From positions 1 to 64,000 of the forward strand of contig NZ_PJAT01000147.1 in NCBI RefSeq assembly GCF_002836715.1: a stretch of 64,000 nucleotides of DNA. The letters are read 5' to 3'. The translations under genes were made by a program, and so were the position numbers. Positions within the stretch are counted from its first letter, which is position 1. Each line of letters begins with the position of its first letter. Below the pieces are notes generated by a model that was not told where the DNA came from, searched no databases, and was given only the letters and a program-made list of their open reading frames with translations. Source of the DNA: Psychrobacter sp. 4Dc. GTDB lineage: Bacteria > Pseudomonadota > Gammaproteobacteria > Pseudomonadales > Moraxellaceae. This document shows positions 8,180 through 42,139 of the stretch, piece by piece.

Positions 8180-10267
8180 ATGCGCTCTCAATCTCTTTTA
8201 AATTTATTGGTAATCAATGATGATCAGCTCTACGCTGAACGTCTTGTGCAGTTATTGAGTCCTTATTACGATAATGTAAATTTAGGGTTTTTGGACGATA
8301 AAGAAGAGCTATTGAAACTCTTACGCCAACCGTGGGATATCTTGGTATTTGGTAAGGCTTATGATATGAGCTTTACGGATGTAGTGAGCCTAGTACAAGA
8401 GCAAAATATTGATCTGCCGATGATTTGTCTAGTGAACGAAGAGATAGCGACGACAGCTTGTAATGAGGAAGGACTACCTACTGTTATTAGTGGCACAATG
8501 GTCAAAGCGCTCACCATCGATCAAGAAATGCCTGTCGTCATGGCTATTTGTCTACAGCATAGTAGTTTGCGCAGTCGTCGTGAGCTAAAAACTTTACGTC
8601 AAGTACTGTCTGAAGCAGAACAACGTGCTAATGTGCTGATTAAGAACTCCAAGAGCGCGGTTGCTTATATTGATGAAGGGATTCATATCTTTGCTAATGA
8701 TCCCTATCTCCAATTATTCGGTTTCAAATCAATGAATGAAGCGGTAGGCGTGCCTATTATTGATCTGATTTCGGGTGGTGATAGTGTCAAAGGATTTAAA
8801 CAGTTTTTACGTCAGTTTGACAAAGGCAGTCGCCAAGACGTTGAGTTTAATTTTGAAAGTGTGCGGACAGATGGCAGCACTTTTGAAGCGAAACTACAAT
8901 TAGCATCAGCCACGTTAGAGGGCGAGCCAGTCATTCAGATTATTATTCAGCAGAATAGTAATAATAGTGCGGAGGTTGCTAAGCGTTTAGCTGAAGCTGA
9001 ACGTAAAGATAATTTAACTGGCTTAGATAATCGTCGTGGTTTTGAAGAGCAGATGATAGCAATACATCAGCAGGCGTCCCAAGGACTAATGACCGCAGCC
9101 CTGCTATATGTGCAGGTTGATAATGTAGGAAAAATAAGAAGTAGTTTAGGTCTACAAGGAATAGATGCAACGGTCAAACAAGTTGCCCACACATTAACTG
9201 AGCTAGTACCTGATGGGCATGTGAGCCGTTTTAGCGATACAGCATTTACGATTTTAGTAAAAAACAAGATGACGAGTGATCTTGAAGAGATTGCTAAACA
9301 TATCGGTTCGTCAATCAAGGGTATGTTTATTGAAGTTGATAAACGTACAACGAGTACAACAGTCAGTATTGCTGTTGTCAAAATTGAAAAAAATCCTGTA
9401 GAGCCTGTCATTATATTAGAACGCGCCATGGATGCTATCAGCCAAATCATGGTAGAGACTTCTAATAGTGGCGGGTCTTACCGTATATATGACCCAAGCG
9501 AACATGCCAATAGTGACGATCATGCACTTGCTGAGTCATTAGTGGATGCTATTACTAATAACCGCTTTGAGCTATCATTTCAGCCAATATACGACATCAA
9601 CAACGATCGTAGCGACTTCTTTGAAGTGTATCTAAGGCTACCATTGTCCGATGCTGACAATACGGTATTAACCCCTGATCAATTTATGGCAGTGGCTAAA
9701 AAGCATCAACTGTTAGAGAAGATTGACCGATGGGTGCTTATCAATGCCTGTAAGAAAATCAACGATGTCCGCAAATTTCATCCTGAAGCCAAATTGTTAG
9801 TACAATTAACCAATGCTTCACTGGTTGATAAAAAATTGCCGATTGTTGCCAGTCAATTAATAAAAGCAGTAGGCGGTGCAGCTGGTGTATTGACACTCCA
9901 GTTCAATGAAATAGATATCTCTGATCATCTAACCGTCGCAAAATCTCAATTTTCCGCGCTTAACGATGTCAATTGTCAAATCGGTGTTAATAACTTTGGC
10001 TCGTCTGCCAAATCTATCGAAATTGCCAATTTTGTCCAGCCTGATATGGTACGCTTGGCACGCAGTTATATTCAAGACATTGGTTCAGCAGAAAATTTAG
10101 AAACGGTCAAGTCTATCATCATGCGCACTAATGATATCAAAGTTGATGTGCTCATGCCTTATATCGAAGATGCAGCAACGATGTCGGTCGCTTGGAGTGT
10201 GGGCGCACGCTATTTGCAGGGGTATTATTTAGAAGAGCCTAGTAGCACAATAAAGGTAGCGAGTTAA
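8180..10267 (+). CDS. fimX: FimX-like degenerate REC-PAS-GGDEF-EAL protein
   Basis: 695-residue cytoplasmic protein with the FimX domain order: receiver (1-~130), PAS (~145-255), GGDEF (~270-440) and EAL (~455-690). All three catalytic signatures are degraded. The receiver has DILVFG where the phospho-Asp belongs, the GGDEF site reads RFSDTAF, and the EAL site reads EVYLRL. In Pseudomonas and Xanthomonas, FimX proteins with the same degeneracy bind c-di-GMP through the EAL domain and promote polar type IV pilus assembly with PilZ and PilB. Length equals that of P. aeruginosa FimX (691 aa). The C-terminal GARYLQGYYLEEP motif is preserved. A pilus role is inferred from the family; no pil genes are in the window. 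Confidence 0.85.
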   Translation: MRSQSLLNLLVINDDQLYAERLVQLLSPYYDNVNLGFLDDKEELLKLLRQPWDILVFGKAYDMSFTDVVSLVQEQNIDLPMICLVNEEIATTACNEEGLPTVISGTMVKALTIDQEMPVVMAICLQHSSLRSRRELKTLRQVLSEAEQRANVLIKNSKSAVAYIDEGIHIFANDPYLQLFGFKSMNEAVGVPIIDLISGGDSVKGFKQFLRQFDKGSRQDVEFNFESVRTDGSTFEAKLQLASATLEGEPVIQIIIQQNSNNSAEVAKRLAEAERKDNLTGLDNRRGFEEQMIAIHQQASQGLMTAALLYVQVDNVGKIRSSLGLQGIDATVKQVAHTLTELVPDGHVSRFSDTAFTILVKNKMTSDLEEIAKHIGSSIKGMFIEVDKRTTSTTVSIAVVKIEKNPVEPVIILERAMDAISQIMVETSNSGGSYRIYDPSEHANSDDHALAESLVDAITNNRFELSFQPIYDINNDRSDFFEVYLRLPLSDADNTVLTPDQFMAVAKKHQLLEKIDRWVLINACKKINDVRKFHPEAKLLVQLTNASLVDKKLPIVASQLIKAVGGAAGVLTLQFNEIDISDHLTVAKSQFSALNDVNCQIGVNNFGSSAKSIEIANFVQPDMVRLARSYIQDIGSAENLETVKSIIMRTNDIKVDVLMPYIEDAATMSVAWSVGARYLQGYYLEEPSSTIKVAS

Positions 10268-12105: not shown

Positions 12106-13122
12106 ATGAGCTTGTTACCAAAGACATTAACCGCACCAATAAAATCAGCTCTGAGCCGCTGGTTTGCCGCGCGTGCACCTAAGAGTGATAGTGCTACGCT
12201 TAATTTGCGTAATGTCTATATTTTCTTTAGTCGTGAAGGAGTGCTATTCGCCGTATTGTTAGTAATTACCTTTATCGCGGGTATCAACTATGGCAACAAC
12301 TTAGTGCTTGGTTTGTGCTTTTATCTGGTCAGTATTTGGCTAATTAGTTTTCATGTTACTTTTGCTCATATATCTGGTCTGCAAGTGCGTCTGCTAGAAG
12401 TCACTATGACAGAAGCTGGCTTGCCTGTTTGGGTTACGCTACAGTTGAATAGTGATAGTCGCCAACCAAGGCGCCAGTTGCTATTTGAATTTGAGCAGAT
12501 AACCAATAAAAAAACCAAAAATGGCACAAACACGCAAAGCTCAATACTCATCACACGATTACAAGGTGAGCAAGTCATTCGACTTCCTGTCCAGACTTAC
12601 AACCGTGGCCAACTTGAACTACCACGGTTAAAAATAAAAACAGTTTATCCCTTAGGTATCATGCGTGCATGGTCTTATGTCTACTTTGCGCGTACAGCTT
12701 GGGTATATCCAAAACCTGAAGTCTTCGACTGGCAAGCAAAATATGCAATCGCAAGCTTAGAGGACTTACCAACAGGTGGACAGTATAGACAGGGTCAGGA
12801 CGACTTTGAGCGATTAGATAACTATGTCGAGGGTGAGTCATTGGCCCGAGTCTCTTGGGGGCATGTAGCGCGGGGACAAGGCATGCTGACCAAGCACTTC
12901 GCTGATCCGGTCGGTCATGAGCAAACGCTTGATTATGCAGATATGCCAGCTGCACATCACGAGCAAAAACTTGCACAATTGGCTTATGGCGCATTGACGC
13001 TAGGTCAGCTAGGCGTGCCGTTTCAAATGCGTTTACCTAGTGATACTCCTGCTACTACGGAGATGGGTAACGGAGAATCCTTTGCGCAAGCATGCTTGCT
13101 AAGGCTTGCGAAAGCACCATGA
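12106..13122 (+). CDS. DUF58 domain protein
   Basis: 338-residue inner-membrane-associated protein. Two hydrophobic segments (about 44-90) are followed by a beta-rich region and the DUF58 core with LPTGGQYRQGQDDFERLD-type sequence, then LARVSWGHVARGQGMLTKHF. DUF58 proteins have a von Willebrand-like fold and work with MoxR ATPases. The stop overlaps the start of the transglutaminase gene (ATGA), so the two are translationally coupled. Confidence 0.9.
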   Translation: MSLLPKTLTAPIKSALSRWFAARAPKSDSATLNLRNVYIFFSREGVLFAVLLVITFIAGINYGNNLVLGLCFYLVSIWLISFHVTFAHISGLQVRLLEVTMTEAGLPVWVTLQLNSDSRQPRRQLLFEFEQITNKKTKNGTNTQSSILITRLQGEQVIRLPVQTYNRGQLELPRLKIKTVYPLGIMRAWSYVYFARTAWVYPKPEVFDWQAKYAIASLEDLPTGGQYRQGQDDFERLDNYVEGESLARVSWGHVARGQGMLTKHFADPVGHEQTLDYADMPAAHHEQKLAQLAYGALTLGQLGVPFQMRLPSDTPATTEMGNGESFAQACLLRLAKAP

Positions 13123-15383
13123 CCAATTCTAAACGCTTATCTTCTGCTGATGTTGATACACTGTCCACAGAGTATTCTGCGGTCGATGCTACAAAAACGG
13201 CCAGCTTTGAGCAGTTGGCTTTAGGTCAAAAAGTCTCAATTCGACCTGAGCGAAATGACGCTAAATGGTATCGTAAATTATTTGCACTGCCAGCTTATTA
13301 TTGGGTATTAATTGCTCAAGTCGTCGTTGTGTTACCGCATGCCGCACATTTGCCATTATGGCTGATAGGATTTGCCGCCGTCAGTATCGCCGCTCAATTG
13401 CCTCATATCAAAGCTAAATTCAAGAAACTATCGCACCTAAAACGTATTTATCAAAGTGTACAAATGCTAGGCTTTCTGCTGGGGCTATTAGGTCTGTGGC
13501 TAACCTACAATACAGCGTTTGGATTGGATATGGGCGTGGCGTTTTTAGTACTATGCTTAGTTAGTAAGCTATGGGAGCTATATAAGCGCCGCGATGCCTA
13601 TGTGGTTTTGAATTTATCATTGTTCGTGCTTGCGGCATTATTTTTGATGGACCAAGGTTTACTGACTACTTTAGAAGTGATCGTTGGCGCAGTCATTGTA
13701 TTGCTAGCATTTATTGCGCTTAATGATGATAGCAATGCTAGCGGTGATGGACGCTTGCGTACATTGGGTGTGTTAGGGGTTGGCGCGTTACCATTATTGG
13801 TGGTGCTATTTCTGTTTTTTCCGAGACTGCCGCCGCTGTGGTCAGTGCAGCTCTCAGGTCAGCAAGCCGTTACTGGCGTCTCTGACAGTATGTCGCCTGG
13901 TGATTTTGCTAATTTAGGACAGTCTACTGAGCTGGCTTTTCGGGTAGAGTTTGCAGATGAGCGTCCACCGCAGCAGCAGCTGTATTGGCGTGGTTTGGTA
14001 TTTAGTGATTTTGATGGGGTTACATGGCGACTAGCCTCTCGAAGGGATCAATGGTCGTCGAGATTGCAAGCACCTGCATGGATTCAGAATGCCTTTGCTA
14101 CTGTACCTGACGAATTAAGGGCGGCACCTGTCAATTACAAGGTTATCTTAGAACCCACTCAGCAAAATTGGCTATTTGGTCTTGATTATCCGTTCTCTGA
14201 GCAGCCAGATATCAATACTACCTCTGAATTTACCTTATCAAAGGGTCAACCTGTTACGCAGCAGCTTCGCTATGATGTGCTGCAGTTTGCACAGATGCGT
14301 ATTGATCCAGTTCTGATAGAGGCATCAAGACGTGAGAACCTTGCCTTGCCTAACGAAGGTAACCCTCAATCGCGCGCGCTTGCTAAGCAGTTATTTGAGC
14401 AGTCAGGTTCAGACCCTGTTCGCTACATCGCTGCTATTGAGCAATGGATTAATCGAACAGAGTTTCGCTATACGTTGTCGCCACCACGGCTCAATACCAA
14501 TCGTATTGACGAATTTTTATTTGAAACCAAAGCAGGGTTTTGTGAGCATTATTCGTCAAGCTTTACCTTTATGCTACGCGCCGCTGGTATTCCTGCACGA
14601 GTAGTAGCGGGCTATCAAGGCGGTGAGCCGAGTCGCAATGGTAACGTATGGGAAGTGCGGCAAATGGATGCGCATGCATGGACTGAGGTTTGGCTTGAGG
14701 GTCAAGGCTGGGTACGTGTGGATCCGACAGCCTTTGTGGCGCCTGAGCGAGTAGAGCAAGGTATGAATACGATGACCCAGCAGCAAGGGGCGGCTATGTT
14801 TGGCAATGGCGCCAGTGCACAAATCAGCTATCAGCAGTATCAAATGCTGCAAACGCTACGCCGACTATCAGACCAAGCGAGCTACTACTGGCAAAAAGAC
14901 GTAGTCGGCTATGACCAAGACAAACAGGTCGACTCGCTACTCAAATGGTTCAATATCAGCTCAATCATGCAGCAAATCATTTGGTTAGCCACCAGTGCGG
15001 TTTCCGTTATGGCTATCTTAGTATTTGTCATTTGGTATCGCCGCCGCAAGCGTTGGCATCCAGCAGACCTACCTCTTGCTCAGCTCTCAAAACGTGTTGC
15101 CAAACACGACAAATTATTAGCCCGCAATGATAATGAAGGGCAGCTAGCGTGGCTGGAACGTTTGGCATCAGCTATTGATAGCCGTCAGGGTGACAATACC
15201 CAATCTGCTACGAGTCAGCTAACAGATAGTAGCGACCCAATCGTTATTCAGACAAAGCTTATTGAAATTAGACAAAACTACCGTCAGTTACGCTATGGAC
15301 GACTGAGTACATTTGATAGCAGTCATAGCGAGTATCAAGAACGACTCAAACAACTTAAAAAAGATGTACGCGCATTATTATAG
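13119..15383 (+). CDS. tgpA: TgpA-like transmembrane transglutaminase (DUF3488)
   Basis: About 754 residues. The N-terminal third has five or six membrane helices, then a periplasmic domain with a transglutaminase triad: Cys in AGFCEHYSSSF, His in DAHAWTEVW, and Asp in WVRVDPTAF. One more membrane helix (about 620-640) and a DUF4129-type tail follow. P. aeruginosa TgpA is an essential or fitness protein of unknown substrate that has this architecture and sits with moxR and DUF58 genes. The frame opens at 13092, but ATG at 13119 overlaps the upstream stop as ATGA, so I prefer it. Confidence 0.9.
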   Translation: MTNSKRLSSADVDTLSTEYSAVDATKTASFEQLALGQKVSIRPERNDAKWYRKLFALPAYYWVLIAQVVVVLPHAAHLPLWLIGFAAVSIAAQLPHIKAKFKKLSHLKRIYQSVQMLGFLLGLLGLWLTYNTAFGLDMGVAFLVLCLVSKLWELYKRRDAYVVLNLSLFVLAALFLMDQGLLTTLEVIVGAVIVLLAFIALNDDSNASGDGRLRTLGVLGVGALPLLVVLFLFFPRLPPLWSVQLSGQQAVTGVSDSMSPGDFANLGQSTELAFRVEFADERPPQQQLYWRGLVFSDFDGVTWRLASRRDQWSSRLQAPAWIQNAFATVPDELRAAPVNYKVILEPTQQNWLFGLDYPFSEQPDINTTSEFTLSKGQPVTQQLRYDVLQFAQMRIDPVLIEASRRENLALPNEGNPQSRALAKQLFEQSGSDPVRYIAAIEQWINRTEFRYTLSPPRLNTNRIDEFLFETKAGFCEHYSSSFTFMLRAAGIPARVVAGYQGGEPSRNGNVWEVRQMDAHAWTEVWLEGQGWVRVDPTAFVAPERVEQGMNTMTQQQGAAMFGNGASAQISYQQYQMLQTLRRLSDQASYYWQKDVVGYDQDKQVDSLLKWFNISSIMQQIIWLATSAVSVMAILVFVIWYRRRKRWHPADLPLAQLSKRVAKHDKLLARNDNEGQLAWLERLASAIDSRQGDNTQSATSQLTDSSDPIVIQTKLIEIRQNYRQLRYGRLSTFDSSHSEYQERLKQLKKDVRALL

Positions 15384-29774: not shown

Positions 29775-30401
29775 TTAATTAAGAAATCTCAATCCAGAGG
29801 TTTTGAGTGCCCATACCAGCTCGACAAAGGCACGACTGTTGGTCAGAGGTTCGCCATCGATGATGAGAACGTAGCCTGCGTTATCTATCCATAAAAATAC
29901 AAAGCTGGTCTCAGGAATGAGTAGGTCTACCTGCTGAAAAAACGAGATTGCTTGGCTTTCTACCGCCCATCCACGTTGCTTTTGGCGAAGCATAAAGCCT
30001 GAAAAATCAGCGGCGGCGACACTGAGCATATCTGCTTCTTCTTGACTATAGCCCACTCGCGCCAAACAAAATCCTTCATCAGAGCCGATCGCGGCACGGC
30101 GTTTACCAGATAAGCTCGCCACGACATAAGGCAAGAACTGGTCCAATGGTAAGTTAGGTGCTGGTAAAAGTAGCGACAGCTTTTCAATCCAACCTTGTTC
30201 TATAAAGCTCTGTAGCCATTGTTCAGAATAGCGCTGAAGCCAGTCAGCAGCGAGCAACGTCTGATCATAAGACAGCAAATCCTGTAATGCCAACTGCTCA
30301 TCAGTTGGTTCGTTCTGTGAAAACGCCTCAAAAATACCAGCTGGCGTCAGGGTGAGATAGGTTTTATCAGCATTTAAGTAAGAAGACATAGTAACTACCA
30401 T
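29775..30401 (-). CDS. unknown protein with possible winged-helix and divergent roadblock-like domains
   Basis: 208 residues (196 if it starts at the internal ATG at 30389... residue 5 of the frame gives 204). No family is certain. Residues ~45-80 (LLSYDQTLLAADWLQRY, SFIEQGWIEKLS) could be a winged helix. The last ~110 residues (IGSDEGFCLARVGYSQEEADMLS, then FLWIDNAGYVLIIDGEP) parallel, element by element, the roadblock protein of the same cluster (LISNDGLMIASALPTGVDEDRVGAMS, then GYVIMTSSGDEAVLTI). This is my visual alignment. The 107-bp repeat lies 40 bases before its start and may have replaced its original upstream region. Confidence 0.65.
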   Translation of the reverse strand: MVVTMSSYLNADKTYLTLTPAGIFEAFSQNEPTDEQLALQDLLSYDQTLLAADWLQRYSEQWLQSFIEQGWIEKLSLLLPAPNLPLDQFLPYVVASLSGKRRAAIGSDEGFCLARVGYSQEEADMLSVAAADFSGFMLRQKQRGWAVESQAISFFQQVDLLIPETSFVFLWIDNAGYVLIIDGEPLTNSRAFVELVWALKTSGLRFLN

Positions 30402-30441
30402 TATGATAAAAGTGATTAATAAGTGACAAATTAGGCTTTCA

Positions 30442-30548
30442 TATCGTTGAGTTCAAATAATTTCGATACAAGGAAATCGAGCGTAAGTTATACATTAGTA
30501 TGCTTAGCGAGGATAATGATGTAGCGGATTTATATGGATTTGACTATA
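30442..30548 (-). repeat. dispersed 107-bp repeat, copy 2 (inverted)
   Basis: Exactly 107 bases, in the opposite orientation to the copies at 32549 and 42033, and very similar to the latter across its length (shared GCTAAGCATACTAATGTATA and CCTTGTATCGAAATTAT on its minus strand). Ends TATAGTCAAATCCATATAA and its imperfect complement. The stop codon and last six residues of the 207-aa protein lie in this repeat. Confidence 0.8.
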
Positions 30549-31153
30549 GTTTGATCGAGATGTTGTTGGCAGTTGTCCCAGCGTGCATCGAACTGCCAAT
30601 CACTTCTACCCAAGCGGAACCATACCAGCGAAAACGCAAGGCGATCATTGCGCGCAGTACAATGGGCAAAAAACTCATTTTCGATTTGCTCGATCGTACC
30701 CCAGTCTTCGTCCTCACGCGCTTGCATCAGCTCAGTAGTGATGTCTTTAGCGATTTCTCGGGCATCGTCGCTGCTGATACGCAGCCGTTGCTTTTGCTCA
30801 TTGAGAGAAGGAGATATCAGCACACTCCAACGAGTGGCCAACATACTATTGCGCTGGATGTATCTTTTTTTATCAATGCACTCGCGAAAGCCTTGCTGGA
30901 CATGAGGATACAAACGATCTTTGATACGGGTAAATAGGTTGTTTACATCGTATGGGATATCAAACCAGCAACCATAAAAAAAGTCTGCCACTGCACCCTG
31001 TAGCGGTTCTTTCTCCGTCAATAACAAAGCTGCGTTGATACGCTGCTCATGAAAATGACGGTTGTTAGGAGCTAAAAACACTTTACGAGAGTAAAACCGA
31101 AATACTCGGTGCGCGACTCTTTCATTTTCTTTGATCAGGTCTGAATCAGACAT
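30530..31153 (-). CDS. unknown 207-aa cytoplasmic protein
   Basis: Not recognised. It is rich in charged and aromatic residues, predicted helical, without signal or membrane segments. Notable stretches are FRFYSRKVFLAPNNRHFHEQ, AVADFFYGCWFDIPYDVNNL and LAFSLVWFRLGRSDWQFDARW. A strong AGGAGG Shine-Dalgarno (eight bases before ATG) supports this strand over the overlapping plus-strand frames. It follows the PhnD-like gene by 123 bases. The last residues TIVKSI and the stop derive from a 107-bp repeat, so the ancestral C-terminus may have differed. Confidence 0.75.
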   Translation of the reverse strand: MSDSDLIKENERVAHRVFRFYSRKVFLAPNNRHFHEQRINAALLLTEKEPLQGAVADFFYGCWFDIPYDVNNLFTRIKDRLYPHVQQGFRECIDKKRYIQRNSMLATRWSVLISPSLNEQKQRLRISSDDAREIAKDITTELMQAREDEDWGTIEQIENEFFAHCTARNDRLAFSLVWFRLGRSDWQFDARWDNCQQHLDQTIVKSI

Positions 31154-31276
31154 AATAATACCCTCCTGTCATTGCTATCATTACAACGGTGCTTGCTTCA
31201 GTGATATGATGTCATACGACAAGCGATAATGTAATCCAGAGAAATAGCGCTTGATATCAATATAATGATTGAGCGA

Positions 31277-32026
31277 CTAATCCAATAATGTCTGCATCAA
31301 ATCAATCATAAATTCGGCATCTTCTTCGCTCATTGGCTCAAACCCTTGAGGCATGCCAAGCTCAGCCAAGGCCTCTTTACCATCTGCATCGTTGTGCAAA
31401 TTCAGGATGGCTTCTAGGAAGATTTGTGCATCGGGAAAGTCTTCTTTGACTAGTAACACATGACTGATATCAGCCAAATCACTTTCGATAAGTACTGACA
31501 GCTGAGTCTTGGTCAAGCGTGAGAAGCTATGAAAAATCTCTGCCAAAAAGAACGCGACTTGGGCTTCACCTTTAATGACCTTGCGGGCAGCCGCTTGATA
31601 GGTCTCGGTCACATCCCAGTTGAGATCAGAGGCTTCTATATCGACGGCTTCTAGCAATCGCAAACCAATCAGTTTGACATCTCGGTTGTCCGCCATCGCG
31701 ACAGTAGCCCCTGCTCGAATGTCTTCCAAACGGCTAATAGCGCTATTAGCTGCGGCTGCAATGACCATCTCATCAGATTTGCCGATAGGTCGGGCAATGG
31801 CTCGATAGCCTTGCTCTCGGATGAGAGTGGCTGCATCAAAAGGGTTGGCATAAATGATTTGAATGTCACCAGCATCAATGACCTGCTCTTGCTCAGCGTG
31901 AGAGGCAGGGATATTGAGATGCATGTTTAAGTTGGCACGTTTTTGAATCAAGGTGTTGAACATGTGCCAGCCTGCAAAGCGATCAGGTGAGAAATCAGGG
32001 GCGATTAACATATTGTGTGTCGTCAT
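31277..32026 (-). CDS. PhnD-like phosphate/phosphonate-binding-type protein lacking a signal peptide
   Basis: 249-residue type 2 periplasmic-binding-protein fold: an N-terminal MLIAPDFSPDRFAGWHMFNTLI lobe, IIYANPFDAATLI, YRAIARPIGKSDEMVIAA, and ATVAMADNRDVKLIGLRLLEAV. It begins directly with the fold (MTTHNMLIAPD), with no Sec, Tat or lipoprotein signal, and no permease or ATPase gene is nearby. A cytoplasmic ligand sensor therefore seems more likely than a transport component. GAGGAAGG overlaps the end of the PAS gene, three bases upstream of which it begins, so the two are coupled. Confidence 0.8.
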   Translation of the reverse strand: MTTHNMLIAPDFSPDRFAGWHMFNTLIQKRANLNMHLNIPASHAEQEQVIDAGDIQIIYANPFDAATLIREQGYRAIARPIGKSDEMVIAAAANSAISRLEDIRAGATVAMADNRDVKLIGLRLLEAVDIEASDLNWDVTETYQAAARKVIKGEAQVAFFLAEIFHSFSRLTKTQLSVLIESDLADISHVLLVKEDFPDAQIFLEAILNLHNDADGKEALAELGMPQGFEPMSEEDAEFMIDLMQTLLD

Positions 32027-32029
32027 GAG

Positions 32030-32530
32030 TTAGCCTTCCTCATCTTGTTTCATTTGGGCATATTGAGTCATCGCCGCTTCAATTTTGCTGCGTGATGGTT
32101 TGCGTCGTACCGAGGTGTAGCCGACGGTTTCACCGCGACGCACGTTAGGCACCACAGTGGCATAGACCCAATAATGACTGCCGTCTTTGCATAAGTTTTT
32201 GACATAGCCATGCCATTTTTGTCCAGACTCGGCAGTACTCCATAAGTCTTTATAGGCAGCTTTTGGCATATCAGGATGACGCAAAATATAGTGCTGTTGG
32301 CCAATCAATTCATCTACATGATAGCCACTGATTTCGACAAAGGCGTCGTTGACGTGAGTGATGATACCGTCGAGATTGGTACGCGAGACAATCAGTTTGC
32401 CATCTGGGTAGGGGCGCTCTATACCAGTATCATAGACAGTCCGTGACGTGCCATCATGATAAGTCATCGTGATTTGCTCAGCAGGCATATCGGGTTTGTG
32501 TGCATCAGGGATTGGAGAACCCATGGTCAT
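32030..32530 (-). CDS. stand-alone Aer-type PAS domain protein
   Basis: 166 residues: a ~40-residue hydrophilic lead, then one PAS domain (about 45-150) strongly like that of the aerotaxis sensor Aer, with THVNDAFVEISGY, LRHPDMPKAAYKDLW (84 onward), VKNLCKDGSHYWVYA and SVRRKPS. In Aer this fold binds FAD and senses redox state. There is no methyl-accepting, kinase or other output domain, so it must signal to a partner. AGGAG lies six bases before the start. Confidence 0.88.
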   Translation of the reverse strand: MTMGSPIPDAHKPDMPAEQITMTYHDGTSRTVYDTGIERPYPDGKLIVSRTNLDGIITHVNDAFVEISGYHVDELIGQQHYILRHPDMPKAAYKDLWSTAESGQKWHGYVKNLCKDGSHYWVYATVVPNVRRGETVGYTSVRRKPSRSKIEAAMTQYAQMKQDEEG

Positions 32531-32548
32531 CTCCTTCGTTGATCGTTA

Positions 32549-32655
32549 TATCGTCAATCCTCTATAAGTTAGATACGGTGTCAGCCTTGCTTAGCCTACT
32601 ACTTGTAGTACTTTCACTCGGCTTCCTTGTATCCAAATTATATTGAATCAACTAT
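32549..32655 (+). repeat. dispersed 107-bp repeat, copy 3
   Basis: 107 bases with ends TATCGTCAATCCTCTATAA and TATTGAATCAACTAT and core CGGCTTCCTTGTATCCAAAT. It fills most of the 170-base gap between the roadblock and PAS genes and is inverted relative to copy 2. Confidence 0.75.
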
Positions 32656-32700
32656 GTTTATAGTAATTAAAAGCTAATAAATTCGATAAGCAGTCGCTAA

Positions 32701-33063
32701 TCAAATGAGCTTTGCCAACGCTTCTGAAGCGCGCTTAATATCTAGGAATATCAAGCCAAGCTTGGCATTGGGCTTTGCCATGATGGTGAGTACGGCTTCA
32801 TCGCCTGATGAGGTCATGATGACGTAGCCTTTCTCGCCTTGAATCATAATACGATCGATACTACCGCGTGCCAACTCGCGGCCTGCACGGTCACCTAATG
32901 ATAATAATGCTGCTGACATAGCACCCACACGATCTTCATCCACGCCGGTTGGTAGAGCTGAAGCAATCATAAGACCATCGTTAGAGATTAGCGCAGATGC
33001 TTCAACATCTGCTGATGAACTGTTTAAGTCTTCCAATATCTGCTGAAATGAATCTGTACGCAT
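32701..33063 (-). CDS. roadblock/LC7 (MglB-like) domain protein
   Basis: 120 residues, one whole roadblock/LC7 domain: SFQQILEDLNSSSADVEASALISNDGL at the start, GAMSAALLSLGDRAGREL helix, and IMIQGEKGYVIMTS strands. Such proteins dimerise and often act as GTPase-activating or scaffold partners of Ras-like GTPases, as MglB does for MglA in cell polarity. No MglA-like GTPase is in the window. A TATAAT on the minus strand at 33146-33151 could be its -10 box. First gene of the minus-strand cluster. Confidence 0.92.
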   Translation of the reverse strand: MRTDSFQQILEDLNSSSADVEASALISNDGLMIASALPTGVDEDRVGAMSAALLSLGDRAGRELARGSIDRIMIQGEKGYVIMTSSGDEAVLTIMAKPNAKLGLIFLDIKRASEALAKLI

Positions 33064-42032: not shown

Positions 42033-42139
42033 TATAGTCAAGCCTATATCAATCCGCTACATCCTCATCCTCGCTAAGCATACTAATGTATAACTTGCAC
42101 TCGGTTTCCTTGTATCGAAATTATATTGAACTGACTATA
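42033..42139 (+). repeat. dispersed 107-bp repeat, copy 4
   Basis: 107 bases beginning TATAGTCAAGCCTATAT five bases after the hutC stop and ending TATTGAACTGACTATA. Terminal bases form an imperfect inverted repeat (TATAGTCA/TGACTATA exact). Nearly the same sequence as copy 2. Confidence 0.82.

Follow-up and report, generated by a model that had tools for sequence, protein, structure and literature searches.

The stretch of DNA analyzed here (the window) comprises 64,000 nucleotides from Psychrobacter sp. 4Dc, contig NZ_PJAT01000147.1. On its minus strand, at positions 29775-33063, lies a block of five genes. They encode a roadblock protein, a PAS protein, a PhnD-like protein, and two further proteins here called d207 (207 amino acids, aa) and e208 (208 aa). 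Roadblock proteins regulate Ras-like GTPases, from those of Myxococcus polarity through Ragulator and Rag in animal cells. The features of the block are listed below; FAD is flavin adenine dinucleotide.

32701..33063, minus strand: roadblock/LC7 protein (MglB-like), 120 aa, the first gene of the block; Pfam Robl_LC7, E 2.4e-18
32570..32655, minus strand: second copy of a dispersed repeat, in the roadblock/PAS gap; query of the repeat search
32030..32530, minus strand: stand-alone Aer-type PAS protein, 166 aa, putative FAD redox sensor; Pfam PAS_3, 1.2e-17
31277..32026, minus strand: cytoplasmic PhnD-like protein, 249 aa; Pfam Phosphonate-bd PF12974, E 4.8e-35
30530..31153, minus strand: d207, adaptor-like; members of the wider family match TPR models
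30443..30512, plus strand: copy of the same dispersed repeat within the d207/e208 gap, probably a late insertion
30402..30529, minus strand: d207/e208 junction; genes for a receiver-like protein and an MglA-like GTPase sit here in relatives and are absent in the window
29775..30401, minus strand: e208, predicted N-terminal winged helix plus divergent roadblock domain; likely start 30389

An earlier note on this DNA, made from the sequence alone, had described the five genes, and its description of the locus holds. All five open reading frames (ORFs) are present, and Pfam recognizes the roadblock, PAS, and Phosphonate-bd families. The PAS and PhnD-like genes, which the note had called a coupled pair, are 3 nt apart, and the start of d207 is preceded by AGGAGG, the Shine-Dalgarno sequence that it had pointed out. 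The two proteins it had left without a known family, d207 and e208, have no significant match in Pfam or NCBIfam. The e208 start was moved to 30389 (204 aa), where the conserved alignment begins; this is probably the true start. Neither Pfam nor NCBIfam finds a kinase or a GTPase among the five genes, and the roadblock protein is the sole match to the Pfam model Robl_LC7 across the window's genome.

The PAS protein matches PAS-type models only, in line with the earlier view that it carries no output domain. Its best solved relatives by profile are the Aer PAS domain (8dik, E 8.3e-42) and full-length Aer (31cj, 7.2e-41). The excerpted text of PMC9668731 reports that Aer residues H53, N85, and R115 contact FAD. 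Mapped from the profile alignment, these correspond to H80, N112, and R142 of the PAS protein. N112 is kept in 101 of 102 proteins, all 20 proteins examined for R142 have it, and position 80 carries H or Q. Similarity and these contact residues mark the protein as Aer-type and as a putative FAD or redox sensor.

The PhnD-like protein was expected to have no export signal. When residues 1 to 40 are scored by a crude hydropathy test, 91 of 92 proteins of the family show no signal-peptide-like stretch; the exception, in locus L202, perhaps has a mis-set start. The PhnD equivalog model TIGR03431 gives 12.5 bits against a cut-off of 261.1, and neither the export signal nor the equivalog-level score of PhnD is found.

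Structure prediction provides a candidate identity for e208. The AlphaFold model (pLDDT 86.6) contains the alpha-beta-beta-alpha-beta-beta-alpha arrangement of the roadblock fold, and all 19 matches in a profile search with e208 are roadblock proteins. Sequence-profile alignment of e208 with the roadblock family was negative at first and weak in a later attempt; the roadblock assignment is accepted because the structure prediction, and not the alignment alone, indicates it. The comparison with PDB structures ranked 1000 chains. The matched region of PriA is a winged-helix domain, and the AP-3, COPI, TRAPP, and CPLANE entries contain longin-type chains. By this prediction e208 joins a winged helix to a second, divergent roadblock domain, and two roadblock proteins would together make up the core of the system. 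For the d207 family a kinship with TPR proteins is possible. TPR_19 matches are present in 18 of its 44 members (best 6.9e-7), and the window's own copy matches no TPR model. Against solved structures, the family profile matches designed TPR proteins (2.8e-9), the helical, non-TPR protein TRF2 (5e-4), and the FimV TPR domain (4mal, 0.0026).

The block is conserved well beyond the window. The PhnD-like gene is present in 47 of 149 Moraxellaceae genomes, the window's included, and in 4 of 16 genera. All five genes are clustered, in a single order, in 46 of these 47 loci; the remaining one (L041) is cut off by a contig end. The e208 alignments exclude loci in which the retrieved sequence stops inside that gene. 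In L045 (7256-7700) the PAS gene appears to be split across two frames. Four Moraxellaceae roadblock proteins are 66-68% identical, over their full length, to the copy of a distant family (L141). The neighborhood is far beyond chance, and since it also reaches other gammaproteobacteria it is conserved beyond close relatives, as a neighborhood search proposed in the earlier note was meant to establish. The Moraxellaceae loci fall into two kinds. In 15 of the 47, two extra genes lie between d207 and e208, one for a protein of 383-459 aa and one for a small GTPase of 178-184 aa. The other 32 have neither gene, and belong to Psychrobacter (30 loci; the window's genus, g1) and to genus g7 (2 loci).

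In other gammaproteobacteria the operon usually runs d207, receiver-like protein, MglA-like GTPase, e208, roadblock, PAS, PhnD-like, and Moraxellaceae have a permuted version of this order. A class-level profile search of 274 genomes found e208 in 19 and the roadblock protein in 35. Apart from the window's own genome, 18 carry e208, and in 15 of them a roadblock gene is found no more than 1 kb away from it. GTPase, e208, and roadblock occur together in 18 of 20 class-level loci, which were chosen for roadblock or e208 matches; PAS and PhnD-like are both present in 10 of these loci, and neither is in the other 10. At the phylum level e208 was found in 5 of 299 genomes, four of them in the class; the fifth match is partial (E 1.9e-4). 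A scan of named genomes took the best 80 of 523 roadblock relatives (Thiothrix, Leucothrix, Amphritea, Neptuniibacter, Methylococcaceae, and others). In 69 of these loci the sequence reaches at least 4.2 kb upstream. Of the 69, 68 have d207, and the same number applies to the receiver-like gene and to e208; the GTPase is found in 47.

The sensor genes behave as a cassette. Of the named loci, 69 have 2 kb or more of downstream sequence; 49 of these carry both PAS and PhnD-like, 18 carry neither, and 2 carry just one of them, which indicates that the two are gained or lost mostly as a pair. On the GTPase tree, which was flagged for long branches, the cassette requires 8 changes, at least 4 of them forced by supported branches, when truncated loci and one single-gene locus are left out. 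With four early-ending loci kept, the count is 12 changes, at least 7 forced; this is too high because those loci ended too soon past the roadblock gene. The PhnD-like model has 13 strong matches in the 274 genomes, all within the 35 roadblock-positive ones, and 2 weak matches (E 1.1e-4 and 3.3e-6) in genomes without a roadblock match. In two of the 13 (G173 and G319) the PhnD-like gene is on a different contig from the e208-roadblock pair.

Several arrangements depart from the usual order. In loci of tubeworm endosymbionts (L185, L207, L213, and L214) d207 is downstream of the roadblock gene. Five loci (L144, L187, L198, L210, and L223) have two PhnD-like genes, and in L144, L187, and L223 one of the two is placed between e208 and roadblock. 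A protoglobin gene adjoins or sits inside the operon in L146 (8944-9498; Pfam E 8.7e-26) and, by similarity, in L157 and L159; its place beside some class operons fits an oxygen or redox input.

The GTPase of the relatives carries the marks of a known group. In an alignment of 25 rows, all have YGTPGQ as G3, 22 lack the lysine of G4, and 23 have DAR as G5. PMC4316618 characterizes MglA Groups 2 and 3 by DAR in G5 and by a deviant G4 that often has no lysine, and describes Group 3 as nearly confined to beta- and gamma-Proteobacteria. In its account, MglA in a Group 3 locus is accompanied by one or two MglB and by a protein of unknown kind, for which fold prediction gave a receiver-like part and a winged helix; it also states that orphan MglB had not yet been characterized at that time. 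Our label "receiver-like" follows the excerpted account in that paper; the support from sequence is a weak response regulator match (E 0.016). The words PAS, PhnD, phosphonate, and tetratricopeptide are absent from its main text. Literature searches, which for broad topics covered the leading matches, returned nothing on this block or on a link between roadblock, PAS, and PhnD. Judged by these sequence features, the relatives' operon is an MglA Group 3 system with components not met in literature searches.

Further loci resemble Group 3. In four other Moraxellaceae loci there is a second Group 3-like arrangement with no PAS or PhnD-like gene adjoining. It consists of a receiver-like protein, a GTPase, and a roadblock-like protein of about 140-150 aa (by eye) in L084, L085, and L086, and of the GTPase and roadblock-like protein only in L088. 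In the Group 3-like loci L082 and L083, read by eye, the GTPase is accompanied by two short proteins that resemble roadblock; ORFs of phosphoesterase-like and globin-like type come next.

Neither of the two missing proteins was found elsewhere in the window's genome, which is 99.99% complete in 156 contigs. No GTPase relative was detected there with one protein or with a 25-row profile; the 25-sequence search did find the GTPase in both positive genomes (L190 and L191). A 13-row profile detected no receiver-like protein in the window's genome, in a search that had no positive control. GTPase presence requires 3 changes on a tree of roadblock, PAS, and PhnD-like proteins from 95 loci, and supported branches force 2. 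The tree includes 46 of the 47 Moraxellaceae and 49 of the 80 named loci, those missing needed genes having been dropped, and was made by a quick search with no mixture model. The GTPase-less groups on it are a Psychrobacter clade (30 rows), L036 and L037, and Oceanospirillaceae (22 rows). Change counts by themselves cannot separate gain of the GTPase from its loss; losses are the natural reading because the GTPase is present on both sides of the tree.

Two ways of making up for the missing GTPase gene were considered and rejected. Fusion of the GTPase to the receiver-like gene in Oceanospirillaceae is not seen, as each ORF of the 80 named loci matched at most one of the seven models. A new partner gene is not seen either: none of the genes outside the block is shared by more than 15 of the 25 compared loci. 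Of these 25, 19 belong to GTPase-less Psychrobacter, the window's among them. The most frequent flanking gene, N5 (methyltransferase-like by eye), is downstream of e208 in 15 of the 19 Psychrobacter loci, and its position beside the block looks like plain synteny.

The five genes are under strong purifying selection in GTPase-less Psychrobacter. Many of the synonymous distances (dS) exceed 1, so that ratios of nonsynonymous to synonymous change (dN/dS) are rough. In 12 GTPase-less Psychrobacter pairs dN/dS is 0-0.059 for roadblock, 0.019-0.070 for PAS, and 0.022-0.088 for PhnD-like; it is 0.006-0.066 for d207 (11 usable pairs) and 0.015-0.063 for e208 (4 usable). In five GTPase-bearing pairs, two of which include L045 with its partial PAS, the values are 0.006-0.029 for roadblock, 0.023-0.120 for PAS, 0.041-0.063 for PhnD-like, 0.085-0.138 for d207 (4 usable), and 0.028-0.054 for e208. 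The GTPase-less pair L036/L037 gives 0.125 for d207 and 0.131 for e208, at low dS. Full-length frames of all five genes are present in the 19 longer Psychrobacter loci; d207 of L264 is masked by an antisense ORF, yet is present in the same locus read as L031. Flanking genes turn over around these 19 loci while the block is retained.

The dispersed repeat of the block gaps is about 85 bp long and has 20 matches in the genome, query included. Three are in the window (32570-32655, 30443-30512, and 42065-42138), and two of these are inside block gaps. The other copies align from base 27 or later of the 32570-32655 query, most from about base 36. For one copy the hairpin fold outdoes that of most shuffled sequences (z -2.33), with 5 of 200 shuffles doing equally well. 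The repeat was considered as a cause of the gene loss and dropped: in Psychrobacter L015 and L019, d207 and e208 are separated by just 29 bp, too little to contain it.

With the GTPase not found and the five genes under strong purifying selection, the block is therefore probably a GTPase-less derivative of a conserved seven-gene MglA Group 3 roadblock-GTPase switch. This suggests that switches of this kind can work without a GTPase. The module probably senses redox, through the Aer-type PAS protein, and a small molecule. The earlier note had inferred a cytoplasmic module that combines these two inputs and acts on a GTPase encoded elsewhere. The joining of PAS and PhnD-like proteins to the roadblock protein of a GTPase system supports the first part; the second part finds no support in this genome, as the cognate GTPase is encoded inside the relatives' own operon and none was found here.

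A mechanism can be outlined. Roadblock and e208 would form a heteromeric scaffold. The FAD-bound PAS protein would report the redox state of the cell, the PhnD-like protein would report a small cytoplasmic ligand, possibly an oxyanion or a phosphonate-like compound, and both would act upon the scaffold. In the full system this input would tune the GTPase and the receiver-like output. In the window's genome the same sensors would act on the scaffold alone, with output through the e208 winged helix (contacting DNA or protein), through partners of d207, or both. The winged helix is our best guess for the output, as the sole output-like domain seen in the block. More generally, and with slightly less than even confidence, we propose that roadblock proteins of the MglB kind can form the core of a GTPase-independent signaling device. 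The heteromeric pair of roadblock and winged-helix-roadblock proteins would bring together the signals of an FAD-based redox sensor and of a solute-binding protein in the cytoplasm, would have persisted in about three lineages after the operon's GTPase was lost, and would act directly via its own winged helix.

Some of the genomes with a GTPase-less operon encode a GTPase at another site. Among 30 Psychrobacter genomes with a GTPase-less operon, a more distant GTPase relative is encoded elsewhere in 13 and none is found in 17, counted by presence or absence in a list of 66 matching genomes. Five of seven tested Oceanospirillaceae genomes with a GTPase-less operon have unlinked relatives with frames of about 320-370 aa. 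These unlinked relatives (L243-L246 and others) are sometimes in tandem and perhaps fused to another domain. The module might then still control a small GTPase in trans from an unlinked gene, the change in the operon being relocation or replacement. This is improbable for the window's genome, in which the two GTPase searches found nothing and the only proteins to match the Arf model have frames of 488, 477, and 320 aa. The 17 genomes without any relative include G144, which is a single contig, and the 25-sequence search detected none in Motiliproteus coralliicola or Amphritea opalescens. In G088 the second GTPase (L088, the only one of the 13 to be read) has, by eye, a roadblock-like neighbor of its own. 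Loss of the GTPase could also mean that the block is a decaying, functionless remnant; two of the seven genes are gone and a genomic repeat is inserted in two gaps. Strong purifying selection, the full-length frames, retention of the block amid flanks that turn over, and the similar GTPase absence in 22 Oceanospirillaceae loci make this very unlikely. An ordinary remnant of phosphonate or phosphate uptake with chance neighbors, which the Pfam Phosphonate-bd match might suggest, has the least to recommend it and is hardly credible: no transporter gene is among the five, the family has no signal-peptide-like N-terminus in 91 of 92 cases, the equivalog score is far under its cut-off, and the PhnD-like gene co-occurs closely with the roadblock gene.

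A role in type IV pilus polarity or motility was also suggested in the earlier note, and is weakly indicated by co-occurrence with PilT. The roadblock protein would set pole identity, and the sensors would bias twitching in an aerotactic or chemotactic manner. All 35 roadblock-positive genomes have PilT at E <1e-120, compared with 232 of 274 over the family cut-off (Fisher p 0.004, uncorrected for kinship or genome size). This association is weak evidence because PilT is too common to inform; it is near-universal in the sample while the block is patchy (47 of 149 Moraxellaceae for the PhnD-like gene), and none of the genes outside the block is found in more than 15 of the 25 compared loci. In the text available from PMC11112851, orphan mglB alleles of Snodgrassella, whose mglA the authors assign to Group 3, altered colony edges on soft agar. 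MglC and RomY are additional partners of MglB in Myxococcus (PMC7949163 and PMC9481161, as excerpted). A pilus role is, on this evidence, rather unlikely, and the block is better read as the GTPase-less derivative of a Group 3 switch. No result here concerns FimX, which the note had named beside the pilus. Two other genes of the window may be noted. The one at 8180-10267 encodes a GGDEF/EAL-type protein by weak NCBIfam matches, with full-length models far under cut-off, and that at 13092-15383 encodes 763 aa with no NCBIfam match at 1e-10.

Loss of the GTPase with the roadblock pair and sensors strictly selected would make signaling by a roadblock scaffold alone directly testable. The little-studied Group 3 MglA systems gain candidate inputs, redox and a small molecule, and, if the prediction for e208 is right, an unrecognized second roadblock subunit.

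The block can be compared with several known systems. It differs from the conservons (Group 2, Actinobacteria) in that counterparts of the CvnA histidine kinase and the CvnD GTPase are not among its five genes. Its PhnD-like protein belongs to the fold family of PhnD by the Pfam match, but it has no signal-peptide-like N-terminus, no transporter gene in the block, and a score far under the equivalog cut-off. Aer (8dik; PMC9668731, as excerpted) is the closest solved relative of the PAS protein, with the FAD-contact residues largely in place, but the block protein is stand-alone and soluble, with no HAMP or chemotaxis signaling domains. The MglB/MglC and MglB/RomY systems of Myxococcus likewise join a roadblock homodimer to further partners, according to the excerpted text; MglC is an MglB paralog that contacts MglB via an interface other than that used by MglA (PMC7949163). 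In those systems the GTPase is present, and the text examined does not mention a PAS or PhnD-like partner. The Snodgrassella mgl locus keeps mglA and three mglB, and PAS or PhnD-like genes are unmentioned in the text examined from PMC11112851; it resembles the block in its Group 3 kinship and, in the same text, in having roadblock genes under selection, one of them unlinked. Group 3 itself is the closest comparison. The window has neither the GTPase nor the receiver-like protein of a Group 3 locus. In its relatives the GTPase has Group 3 features and is preceded by a protein of unknown family and followed by roadblock proteins, and the one or two MglB of such loci have their counterparts in the roadblock protein, by Pfam, and in e208, by its predicted structure.

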